DNA of 21,987 nucleotides from the IMG/VR virus record IMGVR_UViG_3300046522_000467, positions 1 through 21,987 of that record. One strand, given 5' to 3'. The notes beneath the pieces were generated by a model. It was given only the letters and a program-made list of their open reading frames with translations. It did no database searches and was not told where the DNA came from. Positions 1,524 to 20,100 of this stretch are shown here, piece by piece. Position numbers and translations under genes: made by a program. The stretch is from a virus. How positions within the stretch are numbered: position 1 is the first letter of the stretch; the number at the start of each line of letters is the position of its first letter.

Positions 1524-2648
1524 ATGGGGGCGATTACAGCAAGGCCACGAAAGGGTGGCGGAATTGGGTACACCGCGCAGATCCGACTCAAGCGCGAAGG
1601 CGTCGTAGTTTATCAGGAAAGCCAAACCTTCGACCGCAAGCAAACTGCGCAGGCATGGATGAAGCGGCGCGAGACCGAGCTCGCCCAACCTGGTGCACTC
1701 GAACGCGCAAAGCGCAAAGGTGAGCTCCTGACCGACATCATTGATCGGTATCTGGAAGAGTACGAAGTCATTCGGCCGCTCGGGAAAACGAAGCGTGCCA
1801 CCCTCAAGGCCTTAGGTTTGACCTGGCTGGGCCAGGTAACCGACCGGGACCTCACGAGCCAAAAGCTTGTGGAGTATGCGCAGTGGCGAATGAGCGAAGA
1901 GGGTGGAGGCGTGCAAGCCCAGACCGTCGGAAATGATCTTTCCCACCTGGGTGCAGTGCTGTCCGTTGCCAGACCGGCGTGGGGCTACGAGATCGACCCA
2001 CACGCGATGACGGACGCGCGCAAGGTGCTCCGTAAGTTGGGTATGGTGAGCAAAAGCAAAGAGCGAAGTCGGCGGCCAGATAAGGCAGAGCTTGATAGCT
2101 TGCTGCGGCACTACGCCGAAATGCTCAAGCGCAAGCCCAGTTCTATCAACATGCTCAAGGTTATTGGATTTGCGATTTTTTCTACCCGGCGCCAGGAGGA
2201 AATCTGCCGCATTCGCTGGGCTGATCTAGATGAGCGGCGGCGCGCGGTGCTGGTTCGAGATATGAAGAACCCCGGGCAAAAGATCGGCAATGACGTTTGG
2301 TGCGACTTGCCTGAGGAGGCCTGGGAAATCATCCAGTCGATGCCTCGAGGTTGCGATGAGATATTCCCTTATAACGGCGATTCCGTTTCGGCGTCCTTCA
2401 CTCGTGCCTGCAAATTTTTAGAAATCGATGAACTCCATTTTCATGATCTACGCCATGACGGCATTAGCAGATTGTTTGAGATGGACTGGGATATTCCGAG
2501 AGTGGCGGGAGTGTCTGGTCACCGCGACTGGAATTCTTTGCGTAGATACACGCATCTTCGCGGCCGTGGTGATCCATACCGTCAATGGGATTGGTTGGAA
2601 AAGATATACGCTTGCCCCGTACAGCTTGGAAAGCGTGTCATTATTTAA
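1524..2648 (+). CDS. int: Tyrosine recombinase (integrase), dusA-specific type
   Basis: The 374-residue product is a phage integrase that would catalyse recombination between attP and the dusA attB. The catalytic set is visible: Arg222 in TRRQEEICRIRW, His307 and Arg310 in HDLRH, His333 in GHRDW and the nucleophile Tyr342 in LRRYTHL. The N terminus (GGGIGYTAQIRLKREG) is the arm-binding type that reads a short beta-sheet before a core-binding helical domain. The start is ATG 1524, preceded closely by GGTGGGG; a GTG six bases earlier is the alternative. It is divergent from dusA, the usual arrangement for dusA islands. Its stop overlaps the stop of the convergent gene at 2641 by 8 bases. Confidence 0.93.
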   Translation: MGAITARPRKGGGIGYTAQIRLKREGVVVYQESQTFDRKQTAQAWMKRRETELAQPGALERAKRKGELLTDIIDRYLEEYEVIRPLGKTKRATLKALGLTWLGQVTDRDLTSQKLVEYAQWRMSEEGGGVQAQTVGNDLSHLGAVLSVARPAWGYEIDPHAMTDARKVLRKLGMVSKSKERSRRPDKAELDSLLRHYAEMLKRKPSSINMLKVIGFAIFSTRRQEEICRIRWADLDERRRAVLVRDMKNPGQKIGNDVWCDLPEEAWEIIQSMPRGCDEIFPYNGDSVSASFTRACKFLEIDELHFHDLRHDGISRLFEMDWDIPRVAGVSGHRDWNSLRRYTHLRGRGDPYRQWDWLEKIYACPVQLGKRVII

Positions 2649-4311
2649 ACAACCTAAATATTTTGCGCAGAACGAACACCGTTAGTGACACGATTATCAG
2701 TGATCCAATCAAGCTGTAGATCTTTAAAAGATCGGTGTCGTTGGGTGCGATTTTGGTAATCGCTGCCAGAGGTTGTATTAACTCAGGAGAAAGTGCTGCC
2801 GAAGCGATGACGCCGAAGATTATTGAGATTCTTTTTGTGTCTGAATCTGAAGCGATTTTCTCGTCGAGCTCTAGAGCTTTTCGGGTTATATCAATTTTTT
2901 TAAGTAGTAGGGTTGCGAGCGTTTTAACTTGTGATCCTGAGCGCGCAAGGTCTATAAATTCTGAGATCTCGCCATACTTTTGGGTCGAGATTAGGTCTTC
3001 CTCAAATCGCATTACCTTTACTTCCAGCTTGGCTACATCAATTGCTGTTCTGCATTTGTCCAGGTCGGTAGATGCATTTGCGTAAAAAGCTCTAATAAAC
3101 ATGGCCGCTTCATTTAGCGTCTGGACGTCAGCGATCATATTCTCAAAAGAGTAAGCGTCGCTCCTGTCCAGCTGTTCTGTCGCCATGCCAGAGGTCAAAA
3201 GTAACGAGACGGCTTCGGTGTAAAAATGATTGAAATCGTCGAACTTCCTTACGTCCTGAAGCTCCGCTGGCGAGTTCAGGAGTGCTTCAGACAAATGCGT
3301 TCGCGTCAGCACGGCCTTGACCAAAGGCTCATGCTGGGCCCAGTTCTTTGAGGCGCTATGCCACTGATTCCAATGGCGCTCTATATAGATCAATGGTTTT
3401 CCAAACCATAGGCCTTGGTTGGTTGTGTCTGTGCGCTGGGGGGAAAGCCAATTGATCTTTACGTCGAAGCTTCCTCTAAGTAAAGACTTTCGTGCGAGCG
3501 TTAATAGATTGCTGGCTACGTCTTGTATGGTGAGTTTTTCGGTAAATACCAGTTCGTAGGCTGTCAAATATTGTTCATTGAACTTAATTTGTTTGGGTGA
3601 GCGCAATGTAGCCGTTAGAAGTGTTTTGAGATTTTTGCGTATTCCTAATTTTTCTCTGATAGGAAGCTCAGAAACGTGATCTGCAATCCCAGCTAAGAAA
3701 ATCTCTTTACACGCAAGTACGGATTTTATGTTCTTGTTGGCTTTGTTTACTTGGTTTAGGACGAGACTTTTACAGGTTTCGTTCTCGAATCCGGAAAGTG
3801 ATTTTAGACATAGAAAAATTACGCCGCGTTTGAATATTCTGATATAGGGTAAATATAACTCGTAGCTTTCGTCGCGTTCGTTTAGGATTGCAATAGGTTG
3901 CAGAAAAAGTCTAGCGTTTTCGCCTGGAAACTCGAACGGGCCGTTGAATAATTTGTTCTCAGAAAGATGCAAGTTTAAAGCGGTTTGAAAGGCGAATGAA
4001 TTCAAATCTCCTGGGTTAGATTTAATGTAGTCGTCATGGTCGCGAACACTCATTCCAAGACCTGAGATGCTATGTTCGATTTCAAGCATGGTGGTGAAAA
4101 GCCTAAAGTTCTTTCGATAGTAAATCCTTCCGTTACTGTCTAGGCCAAAGATGAACGCTTCCGAACTTGCAAGGGTCTCGCATGCGGCTCGTACGTCAAT
4201 ATCATGGGGCATTTTTGCAGCATAAATATAAGCGGACTGACCTGTGTACCAGTCTTCATGTGGTCTTGAATTTTCGCTTTCCTGCTCCACGGATGACGTC
4301 CCTGTATGCAT
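2641..4311 (-). CDS. Unknown cargo protein with two C-terminal membrane helices
   Basis: About 556 residues with no family I recognise. Most of the protein is soluble and mixed alpha/beta. A helical, charged stretch precedes two hydrophobic segments at about residues 495-512 and 531-548, joined by a short polar loop, with a basic tail RKIFRLFK. That layout (large cytosolic part, long helix, two membrane helices at the C terminus) resembles CorA-like and some abortive-infection effectors, but no GMN metal-channel motif is present. The DNA is clearly more AT-rich than the rest of the phage, suggesting a recent cargo gene. I chose ATG 4311 because GGGA lies 6 bases before it; ATG 4323 and a TTG at 4461 that would overlap the prtN-like gene are alternatives. 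Superinfection exclusion or defence is a guess from position and topology. Confidence 0.75.
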   Translation of the reverse strand: MHTGTSSVEQESENSRPHEDWYTGQSAYIYAAKMPHDIDVRAACETLASSEAFIFGLDSNGRIYYRKNFRLFTTMLEIEHSISGLGMSVRDHDDYIKSNPGDLNSFAFQTALNLHLSENKLFNGPFEFPGENARLFLQPIAILNERDESYELYLPYIRIFKRGVIFLCLKSLSGFENETCKSLVLNQVNKANKNIKSVLACKEIFLAGIADHVSELPIREKLGIRKNLKTLLTATLRSPKQIKFNEQYLTAYELVFTEKLTIQDVASNLLTLARKSLLRGSFDVKINWLSPQRTDTTNQGLWFGKPLIYIERHWNQWHSASKNWAQHEPLVKAVLTRTHLSEALLNSPAELQDVRKFDDFNHFYTEAVSLLLTSGMATEQLDRSDAYSFENMIADVQTLNEAAMFIRAFYANASTDLDKCRTAIDVAKLEVKVMRFEEDLISTQKYGEISEFIDLARSGSQVKTLATLLLKKIDITRKALELDEKIASDSDTKRISIIFGVIASAALSPELIQPLAAITKIAPNDTDLLKIYSLIGSLIIVSLTVFVLRKIFRLFK

Positions 4312-4378
4312 AGCTTTTCCCATTCGCTGATGAGTCAAGATCCCATGTGACGTGAGCACTAGCAAGAAGGCAACACCG

Positions 4379-4657
4379 CTAGCCCGCCAATTTATAGCGA
4401 CCGTGCAACTTGTCGTTTTCGGTGCGAGCTTTATCGCAGCGCTCATCAAGGTATTTGGCAAGGTCGTTAATTTGTATCCCCTTCGCAGCTTTCTGACTGC
4501 CTTCTATTCTGATTAGAGGAAGATCAATTTCGCCGCTCGTGGCCTTTCGAATGAATTTTTCCGGAGTAAGGTGCGAAAAGTAATCGGCGCACACCCGCTC
4601 TAAGGGAATGATCACTTGTCCGTTGTATTGGGCCATTAGTAAAAAGACCGTGTTCAT
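4379..4657 (-). CDS. PrtN-family (pyocin activator-like) DNA-binding protein
   Basis: The 92-residue product matches the PrtN family, small DNA-binding proteins named after the activator of pyocin genes in P. aeruginosa. Family features seen are the start MNTVFLLMAQY, the core IPLERVCADYFSHL followed by a GEIDLPLIRIE strand, SQKAAKG, and a final helix INDLAKYLDER. The start ATG 4657 overlaps the stop of the gene before it as ATGA. It is the last gene of the leftward operon before the cargo gene and lies near the integrase, where excisionase genes often sit, so an excisionase or late-activator role is possible. The specific role is inferred; the family is clear. Confidence 0.8.
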   Translation of the reverse strand: MNTVFLLMAQYNGQVIIPLERVCADYFSHLTPEKFIRKATSGEIDLPLIRIEGSQKAAKGIQINDLAKYLDERCDKARTENDKLHGRYKLAG

Positions 4658-5112
4658 GCCACCGCCTTCGCCGGCCACGCGCCAACGCTATCGTAGAGGT
4701 GATCGACGTGGAGCGGGTCTAAGCTCACGTCGTTTGGAATGGCGATCCAGGCAGAGCCCGCCAAGTGGTTGGGATTGCATCCTTCAAGGTGTTCCCGGTA
4801 GCACGCTTCAATTACATCGGTGAGCTGGCTAGCGAGATAAAGACCGCGCGGTGTTACCTCGATGCTTTTGATGTAGCGCTGCCCGGCCTGGTCGATACAT
4901 AGCGCGCTGATGTAGATGCACCAGGTATGAGCGAAGTCGCACACTGCGTCGACCATCGCTCGGGACCGGATCACCCTGGCAGTTTTCCAGTTGATCAGGT
5001 ACTGCCCGCCGGCCGGATCGACGTTAATAACTGCGGCGTGGTTAGTACGAACCATTGCCTGGCAGGAGCGCTCGAGACGAGCGCGGATGTTGTGGGGCTT
5101 GCGTCTGCTCAT
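4654..5112 (-). CDS. Conserved Pseudomonas phage protein of unknown function (152 aa)
   Basis: The product starts MSRRKPHNIRARLERSCQ and contains HAAVINVDPAGGQYLINWK, a WCIYISALC segment and CNPNHLAGSAWIAIPNDVSLD. This is a pattern I recognise from hypothetical proteins of Pseudomonas prophages, usually beside early-operon genes. There is no signal peptide or membrane segment. ATG 5112 was chosen over an upstream in-frame start because it forms an ATGA overlap with the methyltransferase stop. The gene in turn overlaps the PrtN-like gene by ATGA. Function unknown. Confidence 0.8.
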   Translation of the reverse strand: MSRRKPHNIRARLERSCQAMVRTNHAAVINVDPAGGQYLINWKTARVIRSRAMVDAVCDFAHTWCIYISALCIDQAGQRYIKSIEVTPRGLYLASQLTDVIEACYREHLEGCNPNHLAGSAWIAIPNDVSLDPLHVDHLYDSVGAWPAKAVA

Positions 5113-6791
5113 GCTGCCGCCTCGGCAGGTTGCTGGTCTACCAGATTGGCTCTGACCAGCGCAGCTGCCACGGGAGGACATACGCTGTTACCGCACATGC
5201 GCACCTGGGAGGCCTTAGGCAGCTTGGGATTGGTTAGCGTGCGGTTATGGATGTAGCCGGCTGGGAAACCTTGCGCGGCGTAGAGCTCGTGGGGCTCAAG
5301 CATGCGCATGCCGATATCAACGATCTGATAGGGCTCGCCCTTGACCATTACCAGTCCGAGACGGTGCTTGGTTGTGATGGTATGCAACGGCTCACCCACG
5401 GCTTGGCCAACAGCGGTGTCGTAGTACTTCAGCAGGAAGGCGCGGACCTCACCGTGGTGATTGCCCGATGCAGTGACGGTATGTAGCGACTCGTCCGCTG
5501 GCTGGCCGTCGCGGCTAGTACCACGCAGTTTTACCAGATGACTTGTGACCAAAGCGTTGTGGTCGACAGTTGTAACGGTCGGTGCTGGGGCGGCCAAAGA
5601 CGCGCCCGGGCCTATGTACTTGCCGCCATAGTGTTTGGCTAAGAACGCCGCGACCAAGCCATGCTTGCCGCCGCCCGCCACAACGGTGCCGAGAGGCTTC
5701 TGTAGGCCGGGCGCGCGAGGCGACTGGCCTGGGCGTTCACCGTATCCGAGTTGCACCAGGGTGGGTGCGACCACTGCAAAGTGTCCGCCTTTCACCTCGG
5801 CGCAAATAGTGCGCAGCGGGTCGTCTATGGCCATGTTGCGCTGGGTGGTGCTGTTAGCGTGCTCGGTGATGAAGGGGGCCAAGGTAGGCATCACTAAACC
5901 TGTACCCAGTTTGCTGGTGATGGTCTGCAAAGGTTCGTCCAGCGGCTGTCCACGGAAGTAGTCGTAGCCGTGGTTCACTTTGACTAGGAACGGCTCGGCC
6001 GAATCGATGACGTACCGCTGGATGCCTCTGGCGATGCGGCGAAGTGTGGCTTCAGCCAGCGGCTTTTTACGGTCGAAGATCGAAGGGCAAGGCAAAGACC
6101 AATCAATAATGTCTGCGGCCAGTCGTTGTGGCTTGGCTTGTTTGGCCTTTACCTCCGGGCTGGTGGCCACTAAGTGGGTAGCTTCCGGCCATACGATAGG
6201 TAAGCCGTCACAACGCGCAATCAGGAACAGGCGCTTGCGAATGGTGGCCGCGCCAAAGTGGTTGGCACGTAGTTCTTTCCATTCCACCTGATAGCCGTGA
6301 CGGCGCAGTGCGTTTACGAAGCTGTTGAAGGTGCGGCCCTTGTTCTTCGGGCACGGTCGGCCATCGGCCAACGGCCCCCAAGTGACGAACTCCTCTACGT
6401 TCTCCAGCATGATCACCCGTGGGCGAACGGTGGCGGCGTATCGGATGGCCACCCAGGCGAGGCCGCGAATCTCTTTCTTCACGGGCTTGCCGCCTTTGGC
6501 CTTGCTGAAGTGTTTGCAGTCAGGGCTGAACCAGGCGAGGTCAACGGCGCGGCCCTGCGTGACTTCACGCGGATCAACGTCCCACACGCTTTCGCAATAG
6601 TGCTTTGTGTGTGGGTGGTTAATTTCGTGCATAGCAATGGCTTCTGGGTCGTGGTTGATTGCGATATCGACGGGACGGCCAAGGGCCATTTCTATGCCGG
6701 TGGAAGCGCCGCCGCCGCCGGCGAAGTTGTCGATTACCAGGCCCCCAAAGTTGAAACTAGGTTGCGGGTGGATGCGATAGAGATTGTTCAT
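5109..6791 (-). CDS. DNA cytosine-5 methyltransferase with internal repeat insertion
   Basis: The 560-residue enzyme would transfer a methyl group from S-adenosylmethionine to C5 of cytosine in DNA. Motifs in order: motif I IDNFAGGGGAS (20-30), motif IV SPDCKHFSKA with the likely catalytic Cys92, motif VI ENV (130-132), motif VIII IRKRLFLIA (184-192), then motifs IX and X (ELYAAQGFPAGY, 502-513; GNSVCPP, 534-540). Motif IV reads PDCK where PPCQ is usual. Between VIII and IX, where target recognition normally sits, six diverged repeats with core PLxTIT occur at about residues 287, 325, 366, 402, 435 and 468. ATG 6791 has GGGAGG 5 bases upstream. No restriction enzyme gene is beside it, so protection against host restriction or regulatory methylation is more likely than a restriction-modification pair. 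Confidence 0.92.
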   Translation of the reverse strand: MNNLYRIHPQPSFNFGGLVIDNFAGGGGASTGIEMALGRPVDIAINHDPEAIAMHEINHPHTKHYCESVWDVDPREVTQGRAVDLAWFSPDCKHFSKAKGGKPVKKEIRGLAWVAIRYAATVRPRVIMLENVEEFVTWGPLADGRPCPKNKGRTFNSFVNALRRHGYQVEWKELRANHFGAATIRKRLFLIARCDGLPIVWPEATHLVATSPEVKAKQAKPQRLAADIIDWSLPCPSIFDRKKPLAEATLRRIARGIQRYVIDSAEPFLVKVNHGYDYFRGQPLDEPLQTITSKLGTGLVMPTLAPFITEHANSTTQRNMAIDDPLRTICAEVKGGHFAVVAPTLVQLGYGERPGQSPRAPGLQKPLGTVVAGGGKHGLVAAFLAKHYGGKYIGPGASLAAPAPTVTTVDHNALVTSHLVKLRGTSRDGQPADESLHTVTASGNHHGEVRAFLLKYYDTAVGQAVGEPLHTITTKHRLGLVMVKGEPYQIVDIGMRMLEPHELYAAQGFPAGYIHNRTLTNPKLPKASQVRMCGNSVCPPVAAALVRANLVDQQPAEAAA

Positions 6792-7488
6792 GCAGCCTCC
6801 CCATGGACGAAACATGCTCGTGCGGGCAAGCTCGTTTGTTTAAGTCCATTCAAGAGGTACAAATGTTGCCTGACGAGATTCCCGTCAATTTCACTATTCG
6901 CCCAAAGCATTGGCTGCTTTCGCCCTTTGGAGTGTTGGCAGCTATCGGGATGTTCTATCTGCCATGGGAGTCCCCCGCTGCCCCGGCCTGGGTGCAAGCA
7001 ATAGGTAGCATAGGGGCCATTTTGGTAGCGGCGTGGGCGGCTCTTCACAGCTCGACTGTTCATCAGCGTGCACTGGATAAAGCGGATCAGGAACGAATCA
7101 GAATTGTCTGGAATGCGCTCTATGAATTTGCGCATAACTCGCACGCCGCTCTTAAAATAATCATTGAGAGAGTGCAGCAAGGGGACAAAGCACTGATTCC
7201 CAAGGTCGCCAAGTATATTGCTGACCGGATGGAGTCCGATTTGGTTGCAGCTCAGGCGATTAAGCTGACAGAGCTGCCCTCTACCGAAGCTATCCGGAAG
7301 CTTCTGGCCATCAAGCTCACTCTTGAGAACTCCATTGGCATGGTTAGAGTCGGCGAGATACCCGGCGGCGCCGCGGAATACGAGTTGCTGGCACGAGAGC
7401 TTCAGGGGCGGCTCAAAGATTTCGATGACATTAGGAAGGGCATTCCGCGCTTTAAGGAAAAATAGTCTGGTGCTGTGAATGTTCATGC
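6785..7488. repeat. Short direct repeats flanking the plus-strand moron
   Basis: TGTTCATGC occurs at 6785-6793 and at 7480-7488, each containing the ATGA junction of a leftward gene, with the plus-strand gene 6863-7465 between them. The repeats are probably copies of the shared gene-junction sequence and mark where the extra gene entered the operon. Confidence 0.5.
6863..7465 (+). CDS. Two-helix membrane protein of unknown function (moron)
   Basis: The 200-residue product has two hydrophobic segments near the N terminus (WLLSPFGVLAAIGMFYL and WVQAIGSIGAILVAAWAAL), then about 130 residues of charged, mainly helical sequence without further membrane spans. It should be an inner-membrane protein with a cytosolic helical domain. 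ATG 6863 has AGAGG six bases upstream. It is the only plus-strand gene inside a leftward operon, which is typical of a moron expressed from the prophage. A 233-codon open frame lies antisense to it; I judge that frame a shadow because it is codon-register antisense and its product is rich in Ser, Cys, Asn and Gln. I see no convincing promoter. Function is unknown; superinfection exclusion is one possibility. Confidence 0.65.
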   Translation: MLPDEIPVNFTIRPKHWLLSPFGVLAAIGMFYLPWESPAAPAWVQAIGSIGAILVAAWAALHSSTVHQRALDKADQERIRIVWNALYEFAHNSHAALKIIIERVQQGDKALIPKVAKYIADRMESDLVAAQAIKLTELPSTEAIRKLLAIKLTLENSIGMVRVGEIPGGAAEYELLARELQGRLKDFDDIRKGIPRFKEK

Positions 7489-8028: not shown

Positions 8029-8510
8029 GCTGAGGCCTCCGCAATGATCGCCGGCGGCTCGGCGCCCTCAAGCTGCTGCTGAATACGGACGACCATCTGA
8101 GCCAGCTGTTCGCAGGTTGATTGCGCCGCGCGGGCTGGCTCTGTCAAGTTGGCCTCTGGGAATGCCATGTAGGTTTTGGCGGCAGTCTTCAGGTGCGTGG
8201 CGGCGGTCAGCAGCAGCTTGATGTCTTCGGTCACGAAGCTTTGGCCGGCGTACAGCGCGATCCGGCGATCTGCCACCTGTGTGATCGACTCCTGTTCCTG
8301 TAGTAGGTCGGTGATGCGGGCCTTGGCCGCGCCCAGCCGAAGCTCCAGGTTTATGCCCAGGTCGTGACCAACTCTGGCGGCGTCTTCGTAACCCTCGTCG
8401 TAACCGGCAGTCCGGGCTTTTTCTGCTTGGTAGGTAGCCCAAGCCGCAAGTGCGAGCAGGGCGATGATGTTGGCTGCGATAGCTATTGCAGCGATTGCAA
8501 TTGGGTCCAT
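8025..8510 (-). CDS. Small membrane-anchored coiled-coil protein
   Basis: The 161-residue product has one N-terminal hydrophobic helix (about residues 4-25, alanine and isoleucine rich). It is followed by QAEKARTAGYDEGYEDAARVG and a long helical, probably coiled-coil region containing ARITDLLQEQESITQVADRR. The topology suggests a protein anchored in the inner membrane with a cytosolic helical domain. It ends in an ATGA overlap with the HD gene. Its ATG follows GAGGACACAGCAC, so the Shine-Dalgarno lies inside the repeated leader element described separately. No known function; similar unnamed proteins occur in Pseudomonas prophages. Confidence 0.75.
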   Translation of the reverse strand: MDPIAIAAIAIAANIIALLALAAWATYQAEKARTAGYDEGYEDAARVGHDLGINLELRLGAAKARITDLLQEQESITQVADRRIALYAGQSFVTEDIKLLLTAATHLKTAAKTYMAFPEANLTEPARAAQSTCEQLAQMVVRIQQQLEGAEPPAIIAEASA

Positions 8511-8567
8511 GTGCTGTGTCCTCGTTGGGCCCGCCGCCGGGTATTGATGTGAGAGTCCGGTGGCGGG
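8511..8567 (-). promoter_or_regulatory. Leader element copy a: CTCTCAC-loop hairpin plus GACACAGCAC
   Basis: On the minus strand an 11-bp hairpin (arms 8557-8567 and 8530-8540, one G-U pair) carries the loop ACTCTCACATCAATAC. GACACAGCAC (8520-8511) follows and is immediately joined to the ATG of the 8510 gene. The Shine-Dalgarno GAGG is part of the element. The loop motif and the 10-mer recur in three other leaders of this prophage. Confidence 0.6.
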
Positions 8568-8580
8568 GTGTTGCGAATGG

Positions 8581-9402
8581 TTAGATGCTGGCTTCGTACA
8601 TCGGCACTTCGTTGATGCCTTCGCTGATGGTGTTGCGAACCGCGGCGTAGGCTTCTTCCAATACCTTGTCCGGACGCACGAGCTCGTACCAAACCTGCAA
8701 GCGGCCCTCGACGATGCGGTAGCGGAACCGCGCGGAAACCAGGAAGGCCTCGCCGCCGATGAAAGGCTTCACGCCGATGTAGAACTGCTCAGGGATTCGC
8801 AGTTGGCCAGTTTCCCCGGCGCGGCCATCGATTTCTTCGTTGTAAGTCAGCTGCACCTGGCCGTTATCGAGGCGGGTGCCTTGCCGGAAGGTGATGTTTT
8901 TCTGCGCCTGCAGGGTGCGGCTGATTTCCAGCATGTCAGCCGCAGTCGGCGCGCCTGGCGTCTGGTCGTTGGTGACCACGTCCTTCACGTTGTCCTCAAT
9001 GAACTCGGCGAATTCGGCCTGGGTCATTTTCTTGCGGTCGTTTTGCTTCCAGTTGCCCCATTCAACGGTCAATGGGCAGGCATAGGAGGCGGTGTGCGAC
9101 CCCCAAGCGGGCTGGTCAGGCTGGTGGTAATCGAATACCACGCGGAAGGTGCGGCCGTTGGGGCCGTTACAGAAGACCACCGTGGCTGACGTGGTGAAGC
9201 GTTTTACGTAGTCGATGAAGGTTTCAGCATCCAGCACGTTCAGATGTTGCTTGGTGCGGACCGGGGCCGGCAGGTGCTGCTCCAGCACTTCCAGCGAGAC
9301 GCCGGCCGGTACCAGCGCGAGTGGGGCCTTGATCTGGTCAACGGTGAAGGGTTTGCCGAGGGCCTGCGCCAGTGAGGCCAACAGGCTGATTGCTTCTTTC
9401 AT
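8581..9402 (-). CDS. DUF2303 family protein (YfdQ-like)
   Basis: The 273-residue product matches the DUF2303/YfdQ family found in prophages such as E. coli CPS-53. Recognisable stretches are HLNVLDAETFIDYVKRF near residue 55, VVFDYHQPDQPAWGSHTASY, then EFAEFIEDNV and the C-terminal FLVSARFRYRI...LQVWYELVRPD. The biochemical role of the family is unknown to me; it is cytosolic with no membrane segment. ATG 9402 has AGAGGAG eight bases upstream. The neighbouring YfdR-like gene supports the family call, because these two genes travel together in other prophages. Confidence 0.88.
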   Translation of the reverse strand: MKEAISLLASLAQALGKPFTVDQIKAPLALVPAGVSLEVLEQHLPAPVRTKQHLNVLDAETFIDYVKRFTTSATVVFCNGPNGRTFRVVFDYHQPDQPAWGSHTASYACPLTVEWGNWKQNDRKKMTQAEFAEFIEDNVKDVVTNDQTPGAPTAADMLEISRTLQAQKNITFRQGTRLDNGQVQLTYNEEIDGRAGETGQLRIPEQFYIGVKPFIGGEAFLVSARFRYRIVEGRLQVWYELVRPDKVLEEAYAAVRNTISEGINEVPMYEASI

Positions 9403-13971: not shown

Positions 13972-16725
13972 ATGACGAAACCCAATACACCGAACAACAT
14001 GGCCGCATGGGCGCGGCGCTATATCGAAGCCTTCGGTCTGGCTCTGGTCAAGATCGAACCCGGACAAAAAGCCCCGAAGGGCAACGCTTGGAACAAGCCT
14101 GGCGGCTACTTCACTGAGGCCGACCAGGCTGAAGCTTTTTGGGCCAAAAACCCGAAGCACAACATGGGGGTGGTACTTGGCCCAAGCCGCATTTGCTCGT
14201 TGGACGTCGATCACGCGGAGTACAGCCGTCAGGTGCTGCGTGATGTGCTGGATCTGCACCTTGACGATATCGCGGCCGTGTACCCCACTCTGGTGGGCAA
14301 CCCAACTCGTTTTCGCATCATGTTCCGCGTTCCGGAGGGGTTGGAATTCAGTCGTCACTCGCTGACCTGGCCGAACCCCGCGGACCCTGATGGCAGCAAA
14401 CTAAAACTGGTCAACGTTTCGCTGAAAGCCGCTCGCGATAAAGGCGATGCGGACCAAATCGAAGTCATGACTGCCCGCCAGAAAGAGTTCGCACCCATCA
14501 CCGTATTCGAGCTTCGTGGTGGTCTAGTGCAGGACGTGCTGCCTCCCTCGATTCACCCTGATACAGGCAAACCCTACACATGGCGCAACCCGCCATCGGC
14601 GGAAGGTTTGCCGGACCTGCCTCGCGACCTGGTGAACATTTGGAATAACTGGGACGTGTTCAAGCGGATGGCGTTAGAGGCGTGCGAATGGGCGCCAAAG
14701 GCGGCGACCCCGAAGATCAAGAACATTTCTCCGCCTCGGCTTGAGGCTGGCGATCATCCCTCTGTTATCGATGCGTTCAACAATGCAACCCAGGCGGAAA
14801 GCTTGCTTGAAGCCCACGGCTATAAGCGGCGGGGTAAGAAGTGGCTCTTTTCGGGCAGCACCACTGGGCTTCCCGGCGTGACCGTAAATGATGAAGGGCG
14901 GGTGTATTCGCACCACAGCTCGGACCCTATTGGCAACGGTCACATGAACGATCCGTTCGACGTCTTCTGCATCCTAGAGCATAACGGCAACGTTTCGGCG
15001 GCCATCAAGGCGGCGGCCAAGTCATTGGGTTTGGATCACGCCAGTCAGCGCAAGAATCGTGTAAGTGGCCCGAAAGCGCCGCGGCCGGAAACGGGTGGAG
15101 AAGGGGAGCCAACGCAACCTGTGAGCGCGGATCTTCCCCCCGCCCCAACTGGTGACGAACCCTCGGCCGAGCCCGGCAGCAGCAGTACCGGGGGGGCGGG
15201 GGGCGGGTTTCATATCCAGGGCTTGCTCAGGCGGTACGCGCTCATCGAGGGTACAACGCAGGCGTGGGACATCGATCAGTCGCGGCGCATCAAAAAGGCT
15301 GCGCTCATTGCGCACGTCGGCAAAGACCTGTTCAAAGAATGGGATTCGATCACTGATCCAAAGCGGAAAAAGCGCGTGGGTGAGGATTGGGTAAAGGATA
15401 TCGAGCGGACCCAGGCATTGGCCGGTAAGGCGCTCGGCGATATCACGATGCCGATGATGACGCGCTACGTATATATCGACGGCACGAAGGATGTTTGGGA
15501 CTACGCGAAGAAACGGCGTGTGGCTGAGGGTGCTGTGAAGATGGCGCTCGGCGACGCGTACAGCTTGTGGTTGAACAGTCCGGATCGGCGAGTGGTGGAC
15601 ATGAACCACATCGTGTTCGACCCGAGAATGACGCACGACCCGGAGATGTACATCAACACGTTCGAAGGCCTGCCGCTCCAGCCGGCTCGAGATGACAGCC
15701 GGTGCGAAAGCCTCATCTGGCTTATCAGCTTTTTATGCAACCACGCCGACGATGCAAACGAATGGTTGTGTCGGTGGTTGGCCTACCCGCTGCAGCACAC
15801 AGGCGCGAAGATGGATACGGCGGTGCTTATGCACTCCACCACAGAGGGTTCAGGTAAGAGCCTGTTGTTCTCGGTAGCAATGGGTCTGCTTTACGGGCAG
15901 TACTCGGCAACGGTCGGGCAGACCCAGTTGGAGGGAAGTTTCAACGCGTGGCAGAGCGGCAAGCTTTGGGCGGTATTCGAGGAGGTTGTCTCCCGCGACC
16001 AGAAGTACAACCAGGTGGGGAAGATCAAGCAACTAATCACCGGGCAGACCGTGCGGATTGAGAGCAAGTTCGTCAACGGGTGGGAAGAAGCTAGCCACAT
16101 GAACGCCGTGTTCCTTTCGAACGAAATCGTGCCTTGGCCCATCAGTGAAAGCGACCGGCGATTCCTGGTGATGTGGCCGGAAGACAAGCTGCCGCCGGAG
16201 CGCCAGAAGGCTATCAGTCATGAGCTCGCCAATGGGGGCGTTGAAGCGTTGTACGCCTGGCTGCTGGCATATGACTTGGGCGACTTCGACCCCCAGACCA
16301 AGCCTCCAGTTACGCCTGCTCGCCAGCGTCTGGTGGCACTCAGTAGGGCGCCTTGGCAGACGTTCGCCAACCTTTGGCGGTTGGGCGAGCTTGGATTCGG
16401 TTTGTGGGGCGGGTGCTTAAGCTCTGATCTTTACGCGATGTTTGTTGAGTGGTGCCACCGCAACGGAGAGCACCGTATGAGCCAAACGAAATTCAGCTTG
16501 TTCATTGAGACGCTCGGCGTGGAGAAGACCAGGGCCATCCCGTATGAGCAGGATGCGCGGCGGCGTTTCGCTGCGTTTCTGATGCCCAAGGACGCCGGTT
16601 CCTTCCTGCCACCATCCATGAGTTCGGCCGCGCTCGGCGCACACGTCATCGAATGGCGTGAAAGGGCGCGAGGGAATGGCTGGAGCGTCGATGGGTGGGA
16701 CCACGTTAAGGCAGGGGCGGCATGA
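13972..16725 (+). CDS. Prim-Pol primase / SF3-like helicase replication protein
   Basis: A 917-residue replication initiator. The N terminus is a bifunctional primase-polymerase domain: MAAWARRYIEAFGLALVKI, then KAPKGNAWNKPGG, GVVLGP and ICSLDVDH with the metal-binding Asp78 and Asp80. A proline- and glycine-rich linker (about residues 365-415) separates it from a DUF5906/D5-type helicase: Walker A TTEGSGKSLLF (near 626), Walker B KLWAVFEEV (near 666) and sensor-like NAVFLSNE (near 713). It should melt and prime the phage origin, as the P4 alpha protein does for its own. ATG 13972 follows AGGGGAA. The stop region leads directly into the iteron-rich candidate origin. The gene also contains a chance CTCTCAC-free body, so the leader motif is not a general feature of the coding DNA. 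Confidence 0.92.
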   Translation: MTKPNTPNNMAAWARRYIEAFGLALVKIEPGQKAPKGNAWNKPGGYFTEADQAEAFWAKNPKHNMGVVLGPSRICSLDVDHAEYSRQVLRDVLDLHLDDIAAVYPTLVGNPTRFRIMFRVPEGLEFSRHSLTWPNPADPDGSKLKLVNVSLKAARDKGDADQIEVMTARQKEFAPITVFELRGGLVQDVLPPSIHPDTGKPYTWRNPPSAEGLPDLPRDLVNIWNNWDVFKRMALEACEWAPKAATPKIKNISPPRLEAGDHPSVIDAFNNATQAESLLEAHGYKRRGKKWLFSGSTTGLPGVTVNDEGRVYSHHSSDPIGNGHMNDPFDVFCILEHNGNVSAAIKAAAKSLGLDHASQRKNRVSGPKAPRPETGGEGEPTQPVSADLPPAPTGDEPSAEPGSSSTGGAGGGFHIQGLLRRYALIEGTTQAWDIDQSRRIKKAALIAHVGKDLFKEWDSITDPKRKKRVGEDWVKDIERTQALAGKALGDITMPMMTRYVYIDGTKDVWDYAKKRRVAEGAVKMALGDAYSLWLNSPDRRVVDMNHIVFDPRMTHDPEMYINTFEGLPLQPARDDSRCESLIWLISFLCNHADDANEWLCRWLAYPLQHTGAKMDTAVLMHSTTEGSGKSLLFSVAMGLLYGQYSATVGQTQLEGSFNAWQSGKLWAVFEEVVSRDQKYNQVGKIKQLITGQTVRIESKFVNGWEEASHMNAVFLSNEIVPWPISESDRRFLVMWPEDKLPPERQKAISHELANGGVEALYAWLLAYDLGDFDPQTKPPVTPARQRLVALSRAPWQTFANLWRLGELGFGLWGGCLSSDLYAMFVEWCHRNGEHRMSQTKFSLFIETLGVEKTRAIPYEQDARRRFAAFLMPKDAGSFLPPSMSSAALGAHVIEWRERARGNGWSVDGWDHVKAGAA

Positions 16726-16737
16726 ATCCGGGTGCAA

Positions 16738-17052
16738 GTGTGTTGGGTGTGTTGGGTTTGTGTCGGGTTCCTCATGCAACCTTACACACGTTCAGGCCAG
16801 TGAATCCGGGGCCTGCGGGAGGCTGTGTAAGGTGTGTAAGGTTTGCGCGCCCGCGCGCGCGCATGCGGAAAATATTTTTCTTCCTCTTCAATAGGGGAGT
16901 TTATTTCCAAGGAGGGGAAATTCTCTTACGCGAACTTCTAAAAACCCAACACACCTTACACACCTTACACAGAAAGCTCAGAGGCATTGATTTTAAAAGG
17001 GTTTTCCTGTGTTGGGTTTGTGTTGGGTTGATGGTTTTTGTGTTGGGTTGGG
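16738..17052. other. Candidate replication origin: iterons, GC-alternating tract, AT-rich tract
   Basis: GTGTTGGGT occurs at 16740, 16749, 17009, 17020 and 17040, once with one change at 16760 and inverted at 16944. The related TGTGTAAGG occurs at 16824 and 16833 and inverted at 16780, 16954 and 16963. Between the two groups lie a 16-bp alternating purine-pyrimidine stretch (16852-16867) and an AT-rich, polypurine/polypyrimidine tract (about 16869-16945). Twelve related repeats directly after the primase-helicase gene fit an iteron origin bound by that protein, as in P4. No convincing gene lies here. Spacings of 9, 11, 11 and 20 bases put several copies near the same helix face. Confidence 0.65.
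16823..16972. repeat. Perfect 20-bp inverted repeat flanking the AT-rich tract
   Basis: CTGTGTAAGGTGTGTAAGGT at 16823-16842 has its exact reverse complement at 16953-16972, 110 bases apart. Each arm is itself two tandem TGTGTAAGG units. The pair brackets the alternating GC tract and the AT-rich tract of the candidate origin. Confidence 0.9.
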
Positions 17053-17073
17053 TTTTGGTTGGAGAGAATGGCC

Positions 17074-17673
17074 ATGATTGAAGCAGTAGAGGCGGTAATG
17101 CGGCATTGGGGCGAAAGCGTGCGCCGTGGTGCGGATGGCGGCGGCTTGGCGAGCCCGGCCGGAACCTTGGTGGAGTGGAAGGGTTGTCCGCCCCGCACCG
17201 CCTCCTCCGGCTCTCGTGTGCTGCTTGCCGGCGCAGGGCCTGACTTCCTGTCCAGCGAAGTGGAAGCGGCGTTGGCAGCTATCGAGCGCATGCCAGAGGG
17301 GGCTGGCGCGGTTCGGCTTGCTTTGAGGCGTTATGTGTTCGTGCCTCCCCTTACCGTGGATGAGCAAGTCCGTGACCTGCAGCTTGGGTTGGGCGCTGCT
17401 GGCCAGCAGGCGTACTTCCGTCTGCTTCATCGGTTGCATGAACTGGTGAAGGCGGAACTGACGGCAAGGCGCGAACTGGTTCTAGCCATTCACCGGGAAT
17501 CGAAGAAAGCTGGTGATCGCACTCGAAAGTCAGCGGTGCGGCTGGCGGGGCGAGCGCATGCAGCGCGGGTTAAAGAGCTGTATCGCGGCAATGGTTTAAA
17601 CCATTCGTCTGGAGACTCGGCGCCAGTCGGCTCCGGTGCGCCCCGGCAAGCCCCCGTCAGGAACAACCGTTAA
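17074..17673 (+). CDS. Unknown protein in the Q antiterminator position
   Basis: About 199 residues, starting MIEAVEAVMRHWGESVRRG. A helix-turn-helix-like stretch lies in the second half (VRDLQLGLGAAGQQAYFRLLHRL), followed by a basic tail that becomes low-complexity (SSGDSAPVGSGAPRQAPV). The W-G pattern near the N terminus, the C-terminal sigma-4-like helices and the location between replication and lysis genes resemble antitermination protein Q, but I cannot confirm the family. ATG 17074 has GGAGAG seven bases upstream; ATG 17068 is an alternative. A strong terminator lies 125 bases downstream, where a Q-type protein could act to let late transcription pass. Confidence 0.6.
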   Translation: MIEAVEAVMRHWGESVRRGADGGGLASPAGTLVEWKGCPPRTASSGSRVLLAGAGPDFLSSEVEAALAAIERMPEGAGAVRLALRRYVFVPPLTVDEQVRDLQLGLGAAGQQAYFRLLHRLHELVKAELTARRELVLAIHRESKKAGDRTRKSAVRLAGRAHAARVKELYRGNGLNHSSGDSAPVGSGAPRQAPVRNNR

Positions 17674-19509: not shown

Positions 19510-20100
19510 ATGACGTTGATGACCAAGGCTGAGTACGCAGATCGGCGCGGCTGGTCACGGGCCTACGTTTCCAAGCTGGTAAAGCAGAACCGCTTGGTGA
19601 TTACGCCAGACGGAAAGGTCGATGCAGAGGCGAGCGATGAGCTGCTGGCCGCCAGCGCGGACCCGAGCAAGACGGGTGTTGCAGATCGGCACCATCAAGA
19701 GCGCTTGGACAAAGGCGTGTATTCACACATCGCCCCGTCAGCCGCGCCCAGTCCGGCCCTGCCAGCACCTGGTGTGGTCGCCGTTGGCCCCGACTACCAG
19801 AAGGCACGAGCGCGGCGCGAGTTTGCCTTGGCTCTACTGGCCGAGGACGAACACCGCAAGGTCCGGAACGAACTGGTGGAGCGCGTGCAGGTGGATACAG
19901 CCGCCTTCACCACCGCTCGTGTACTGCGAGACCTGCTGATGGGCATCCCGCCCAAGATCGCTGGCGAGCTGGTCACCCTGACGGATGTCTGGGAAATCGA
20001 ACGCCGACTAACACAAGCCTTCCGGCGAGCCCTTGAAGATGCTGACCGCGCATTGCGGAAAGAGGGGAGCGAAGTGGGGGGTACTCAAGAGCTGAGCTAA
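19510..20100 (+). CDS. Terminase small subunit-like protein
   Basis: The 196-residue product has an N-terminal winged-helix-like motif (TKAEYADRRGWSRAYVSKLV, residues 5-24) as in Nu1-type small terminases. A proline-rich linker (SAAPSPALPAPG) and a helical C-terminal part (ARREFALALLAEDEHRKVRNEL) follow. It would bind cos DNA and load the large subunit. ATG 19510 has no clear Shine-Dalgarno; ATG 19519 is equally possible. Its stop is three bases before the large terminase ATG, which strongly supports the call. Confidence 0.75.
   Translation: MTLMTKAEYADRRGWSRAYVSKLVKQNRLVITPDGKVDAEASDELLAASADPSKTGVADRHHQERLDKGVYSHIAPSAAPSPALPAPGVVAVGPDYQKARARREFALALLAEDEHRKVRNELVERVQVDTAAFTTARVLRDLLMGIPPKIAGELVTLTDVWEIERRLTQAFRRALEDADRALRKEGSEVGGTQELS

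Follow-up and report, generated by a model that had tools for sequence, protein, structure and literature searches.

Replication origins in which an iteron array stands directly behind a primase gene have been described for satellite elements. The pri-rep origin of the E. coli PICI EcCICFT073 has two iteron sets flanking an AT-rich part (Fillol-Salom 2018, PMC6092414), and that report states that the PICI pri-ori, consisting of the primase and its downstream array, maintains a plasmid and drives replication, and that such a layout is present in 'no other known bacterial replicon' (PMC6092414). We found the region behind the EcCICFT073 primase to hold TGTCTACC[CT] units at 9-bp spacing, and its primase and P4 alpha to match DUF5906, D5_N and Pox_D5 alike. 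Two primase-polymerase systems are also relevant. The NrS-1 genome is reported to contain two 8-nt primase recognition sites (TTTGGTTA), with no iteron array mentioned in the available sections of the reports (PMC7102993, PMC8718748), and the minimal replicon of pRN1, whose ORF904 is a prim-pol replicase, is described as needing a stretch downstream of the gene (PMC4234260).

The DNA analysed here is a virus record of 21,987 bases, referred to at its full length as the window. Twelve units of a 9-bp repeat, TGTGTNRGG, lie at 16739-17047, between the stop of a 917-aa primase-helicase gene and the start of the next gene at 17068. The features of the locus are as follows (basis in parentheses; the iterons were read from the sequence):

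13972 to 16725, plus strand: gene of the putative initiator, 917 aa, with Prim-Pol (residues 14-217), DUF5906 SF3-type helicase (620-730) and predicted C-terminal winged helix (about 815-875) (Pfam, PHROGs, model)
16483 to 16509, plus strand: codons 838-846, predicted recognition helix QTKFSLFIE (model); Q838 is the top repeat-covarying column
16739 to 16747, plus strand: iteron 1, TGTGTTGGG, outer left
16748 to 16756, plus strand: iteron 2, TGTGTTGGG, outer left
16759 to 16767, plus strand: iteron 3, TGTGTCGGG, outer left
16780 to 16788, minus strand: iteron 4, TGTGTAAGG, inner
16824 to 16832, plus strand: iteron 5, TGTGTAAGG, inner
16833 to 16841, plus strand: iteron 6, TGTGTAAGG, inner
16852 to 16867, no strand: alternating purine-pyrimidine GC tract, 16 nt, Z-DNA-prone (sequence; run of at least 12 in 164/164 testable relatives)
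16869 to 16893, no strand: AT-rich core, candidate unwinding element (80% AT; most AT-rich 25-mer of 13.9-18.5 kb)
16927 to 16933, plus strand: conserved box YAYGCGA, here TACGCGA (present in 181/192 related arrays)
16945 to 16953, minus strand: iteron 7, TGTGTTGGG, inner
16954 to 16962, minus strand: iteron 8, TGTGTAAGG, inner
16963 to 16971, minus strand: iteron 9, TGTGTAAGG, inner
17008 to 17016, plus strand: iteron 10, TGTGTTGGG, outer right
17019 to 17027, plus strand: iteron 11, TGTGTTGGG, outer right
17039 to 17047, plus strand: iteron 12, TGTGTTGGG, outer right
17068 to 17673, plus strand: next gene, phrog_4300 (PHROGs 1.1e-36, read from 17038; no Pfam match)

A first-pass annotation of this DNA had placed twelve TGTGTWRGG-like copies just 3' of the primase-helicase gene. 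This proved correct: the first unit follows the stop (16725) after 13 bases, eleven of the twelve units are exact TGTGTWRGG and the twelfth (16759-16767) is TGTGTCGGG. The strand order across the array is +++ - ++ --- +++. Allowing one mismatch, 13 matches were observed versus a simulated mean of 0.11 (maximum 2) for the dinucleotide make-up of the window and 0.58 (maximum 3) for that of the region, an expectation of 0.1-0.6 overall, confirming that the twelve-unit array is real and far above chance. The perfect 20-bp inverted repeat noted in that annotation, and the alternating GC and AT-rich tracts that it had placed between the repeats, were likewise recovered. The inner units oppose each other in an inverted repeat (16823-16845 / 16950-16972) that matches at 96% over 23 nt and perfectly over 20 (16823-16842 / 16953-16972), enclosing the GC-alternating run (16852-16867) and the AT-rich 25-mer (16869-16893).

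The primase-helicase matches PF09250 (4e-21) and PF19263 (1.4e-18) in Pfam and phrog_1156, DNA primase, in PHROGs (4.6e-125). A predicted model of residues 555-917, made with 91 diverse homologues (mean pLDDT 90.7), has a helicase core followed by a winged helix with a recognition helix (838-846) and a beta wing; the full-length model, from 33 close homologues, reached a mean pLDDT of 52.8, and the usable model is limited to residues 555-917. The best fold match is the NrS-1 CTR (PDB 6k9c, 6lrb; Z 27.8), whose entries were also retrieved by sequence search with the window primase and which belongs to a primase-polymerase that likewise comprises Prim-Pol, ring helicase and C-terminal domain. 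SaPI5 primase-helicase (PDB 7ola; Z 17.9) and PriRep1 with dsDNA (7pds; Z 15.2) share the fold of helicase plus C-terminal domain, but the SaPI primase-helicases are from Gram-positive satellites and have 11-12% identity to the window protein.

In its organization the locus agrees with PICI/SaPI-type modules, having the DUF5906/SF3-type domain PF19263, a predicted C-terminal winged helix with SaPI-like fold, and iterons immediately 3' of the gene in two sets that flank an AT-rich part. EcCICFT073 shares with it the DUF5906 protein, the iterons directly 3' of the gene and the 9-bp tandem spacing, but is a satellite, is without Prim-Pol, has D5_N and Pox_D5, and uses another repeat. P4 is similar in the position of crr directly behind alpha, in its type I repeat (TGTTCACC, in the same sense), in the 9-bp spacing of repeat pairs and in DUF5906, and differs in that alpha has a Toprim/zinc-ribbon primase and a separate ori lies 2-3 kb past the far end of the alpha gene. 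The pRN1 system, as described, parallels the locus in its prim-pol replicase and needed downstream stretch, but is an archaeal plasmid. In lambda O-type origins the iterons are inside the initiator gene, whereas the window array is outside it, and no Rep_3-type initiator domain (as in iteron plasmid Reps of the RepE/TrfA type) was found in the gene adjoining the array. The term 'P4-alpha-like', as used in the first-pass annotation, is appropriate in a broad sense but not in a narrow one: against the P4-family model TIGR01613 (NCBIfam) the protein scored 22.6 bits versus a cut-off of 108.7, and D5_N (PF08706) was absent at E 1e-3, and it is therefore not filed as a P4-family primase. By analogy it would work like the PICI and P4 modules.

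Protein searches produced 75 viral and 18 genome loci, the named organisms of the latter being Pseudomonas save for one gammaproteobacterial metagenome; after leaving out three loci with truncated genes, 90 were used. These reduce to 72 distinct downstream regions, every one of which (72/72) holds 7 to 12 units at like offsets. Over the 192 distinct arrays obtained from all scans the first unit occurs at the same offset in 178, the commonest unit spacings are 9, 11, 20-22 and 44-45, and the units are conserved whereas the intervening spacer sequence differs. TAAGG units, which in the window occupy inner positions on both strands while the outer units are TTGGG or TCGGG, are present in 21/192 arrays with 104 copies at inner and 2 at outer positions. 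This near confinement indicates that the inner set can change spelling together. The two unit types had been thought to form groups of opposite orientation that set an unwinding geometry; however, spellings do not sort by orientation and 171/192 related arrays have no TAAGG unit at all, leaving the geometry unsupported in that form.

The association also holds in reverse. In a scan of viral contigs for the exact repeat pattern, 73 of the 80 loci examined among the matches listed had a primase homologue adjoining the array; the other seven comprised five that are cut off on the primase side and two that are primase-free (L122 and L140). The latter contain other repeat arrays (L122, 4655-4794; L140, 1-420) with two TGTGTAGGG units each and no primase homologue; L122 further contains inverted repeats separated by a long A-tract.

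Arrays with a different repeat were found behind the DUF5906 gene of Moraxella phage Mcat4, Stenotrophomonas phage S1, Halomonas phage H4907, Pseudomonas phage KT1 and a 9.7-kb Roseomonas plasmid. Extended scans gave 428 loci with a complete gene end, which form 109 clusters by C-terminal sequence. Requiring the commonest downstream 7-mer to exceed all 100 shuffles, an array is directly downstream in 100/109 clusters versus 0/109 control windows of the same loci. Three of the clusters failing this test have an explanation, namely a split reading frame in L033, where the array is present when examined among close relatives, and mixed unit spellings in L127 and L228, with 11 frame units each; the remaining 6/109 (L224, L287, L393, L395, L404 and L439) show no clear array. 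Most repeats fit the frame TGT-NNN-GGG with the core GTT, GTC, GTA, GCA, GAT, CTA, CCA, TAC, TAA or GCG, and those departing from it are TGTCGGAAT, TGGTTAGGG and TGTGCGGGA. In the Roseomonas plasmid the primase family with its array is the sole recognised replication gene. This plasmid (L223) also encodes a resolvase and, at 8253-8762, what may be a fragment of a terminase large subunit (22.4 bits, below cut-off); it is perhaps a phage-derived plasmid or satellite.

Comparison of loci further indicates which part of the protein goes with the repeat. Among TGTGTNRGG loci 173 have a Prim-Pol N-terminus, 47 do not and 35 more are truncated; the 47 include at least two split frames (L217 and L163), and others carry PriCT_2 and Toprim_3 (Pfam, shown for L218). 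Conversely, the Prim-Pol N-terminus occurs with other repeats at 11 loci, or 10 after removal of one artefact (L033). Across 4,950 pairs of clusters, the partial rho of repeat similarity is -0.35 with the distance between C-terminal domains, controlling for the helicase, and -0.14 with helicase distance, controlling for the C-terminal domain, both values being without permutation p. From these sequence comparisons, the repeat appears to go with the C-terminal helicase/winged-helix part while the N-terminal primase is exchanged. In an alignment of 169 proteins the most information on repeat class lies in the column of Q838, at which the predicted recognition helix begins. TGTGTNRGG goes with Q (129) or H (17) in this column, TGTCTAGGG with E (11) or D (1), TGGTTAGGG with A (2), ACTAGGG with D (3), TGTGTCAGG with H (5) and TGTGCAGGG with H (1). 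Scores close to that of Q838 are reached by several columns of the tail; in mean column score, residues 867-917 come first (1.13), ahead of the winged helix (0.83) and the helicase (0.48). The co-variation of repeat and C terminus in relatives, proposed as a check in the first-pass annotation, was thus found both in the partial correlation and at Q838, although it is confounded by descent and the minor repeat classes have 1 to 12 members.

We propose that the primase-helicase is an initiator and the adjacent array its cognate iteron replication origin, a reading based on sequence, model and analogy to which we assign a probability of about 0.88. It is favoured because the layout is fixed in relatives, arrays follow the gene in nearly all clusters, the repeat follows the C-terminal half, a winged helix is predicted with fold matches to SaPI proteins, and the same arrangement is reported for the PICI origin (PMC6092414). 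The same comparisons support the self-contained initiator-origin module suggested in the first-pass annotation. According to this proposal, the C-terminal winged helix of the primase-helicase would bind the 9-bp iterons in the frame TGT-NNN-GGG, and copies of the protein would gather on the inner iterons, which are opposed across the GC-alternating and AT-rich core, while the outer iterons would contribute affinity. A ring formed by the SF3-type helicase part would melt the AT-rich core and unwind the DNA, the N-terminal Prim-Pol part would lay the first primers, and the phage would copy its DNA from the array after excision or infection. Direct outcomes of the analysis are the array, the conserved layout, the C-terminal link and the covariation; replication is known for the PICI relatives only. 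Neither the window nor phage Lodos shows an inflection of GC skew at the array, so skew is uninformative on bidirectional replication.

Plasmid iterons also serve copy control, and the array could conceivably be a control element only, through which an initiator or repressor limits its own or the next gene while replication takes place elsewhere, for example at a distant origin as in P4. P4 indeed has both crr behind alpha and a separate ori, and the next gene, phrog_4300, is conserved; members of its family stand behind 186/187 related arrays. Judged within the family alone, the array could in theory belong to phrog_4300, which adjoins it as regularly as the primase does, but distant families and the PICI and P4 cases speak against this, and we do not regard the phrog_4300 gene as part of the module. 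The absence of a sigma-70-like promoter in 16600-17200, of a second unit cluster elsewhere in the window and of one among the matches listed for 24 whole records of relatives all count against a purely regulatory role, and an origin would account for the location 3' of the gene, for an AT-rich core enclosed by opposed iteron sets and for the resemblance to the PICI system, making control alone improbable. In Halomonas phage H4907 the gene at the place of phrog_4300 is annotated as an antitermination protein.

Other functions for the array are less plausible still. The terminase genes lie 2.5 kb downstream (19510-20100), which would suit a role in packaging, as a pac/cos site or as an array recognised by terminase; however, 56/118 array loci with more than 4.8 kb downstream show no detected homologue of the window TerS, the repeat follows the primase C-terminus, and the arrays of the E. 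coli PICI and P4 adjoin primase genes, so that a packaging role is very unlikely. The Roseomonas plasmid counts for little against it, since it carries a possible TerL fragment. Tandem and inverted repeats are common at recombination, excision and partition sites, but the integrase gene is 14 kb away beside the Dus gene and the array accompanies the primase regardless of which N-terminus or terminase is present, and we give such a site scarcely any weight. An open frame (ORF 16722-17081) extends across the array in the window and in 49/192 relatives, raising the question of whether this is coding DNA or a functionless repeat-rich stretch. The frame is closed in 143/192 relatives, the spacing between the core halves varies by lengths other than multiples of 3, and units are kept where spacers differ, rendering both options highly improbable. 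A cognate origin for the primase-helicase accordingly remains our preferred interpretation of the array.

The alternating purine-pyrimidine tract is a second conserved element. A run of at least 12 is present in the core of all 164 testable TGTGTNRGG arrays, with a mean of 18.4 versus 5.7 in shuffled sequences. The purine fraction swings between about 0.05 and 0.95 over about 18 positions at a mean tract identity of 0.60, and the transition/transversion ratio is 0.84 in the tract versus 0.48 in a spacer; the Z-prone tract may be conserved more in its purine-pyrimidine alternation than in its sequence. In 68/109 clusters the run length is reached by fewer than 5/100 simulated sequences. Runs in the Pseudomonas, KT1 and Halomonas groups are mostly 100-135 nt behind the stop codon; the tract is rare in the Moraxella-type group (3/17) and absent in the Roseomonas-type (0/3). 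The longest tract alternates over 38 bases, 138 nt 3' of the primase stop codon of L306. The tract may have a Z-DNA role.

A more speculative extension, which we consider possible but doubtful, combines a shared origin code with a supercoil sensor. It would be mainly the first part of the recognition helix that reads the middle triplet of TGT-NNN-GGG (GTN by Q/H838, CTA by E/D, the TGGTTAGGG form by A and the ACTAGGG form by D), the primase being swapped freely, and the Z-prone GC tract might flip in competition with the AT-rich core, tying firing to superhelicity.

By sequence, the module appears to be a variation on the PICI/SaPI/P4 theme, here carried by complete temperate phages. The window is itself a fragment, and its relative Lodos has terminase, portal, capsid and tape measure genes. 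These phages look like a counter-example to the uniqueness statement made for PICIs (PMC6092414), and an origin layout printed as special to satellites would be the norm across a large number of temperate phages. Hundreds of related phages share this layout but spell the repeat differently, which provides material on how initiators choose repeats. Many natural repeat spellings are matched to natural reader-domain spellings, so that two questions become testable, namely which residues choose the repeat and how satellites and phages exchange replication modules. As a physical property of an origin, the conserved alternating tract is simple and open to testing. In the literature within reach, which mostly excluded subscription journals, we found no account of this phage array or of an iteron origin with a conserved alternating tract; new here are the TGT-NNN-GGG frame, the covariation and the alternating GC tract conserved beside the AT-rich core.

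Elsewhere in the window, a tRNA-dihydrouridine synthase gene (Pfam Dus) lies beside a tyrosine integrase (402-1688 and 1518-2648) and GC skew shifts at about 1.2 kb; this has the appearance of a prophage inserted in a dus gene, with some host DNA at the left end. On the minus strand, 2641-4461 encodes a 606-aa protein with a hydrophobic C-terminus and no Pfam match, at a GC content of 0.39-0.49 versus about 0.6, possibly a cargo gene. A C5 cytosine methyltransferase is encoded at 5109-6815, also on the minus strand, and phage Lodos has one at a like place.
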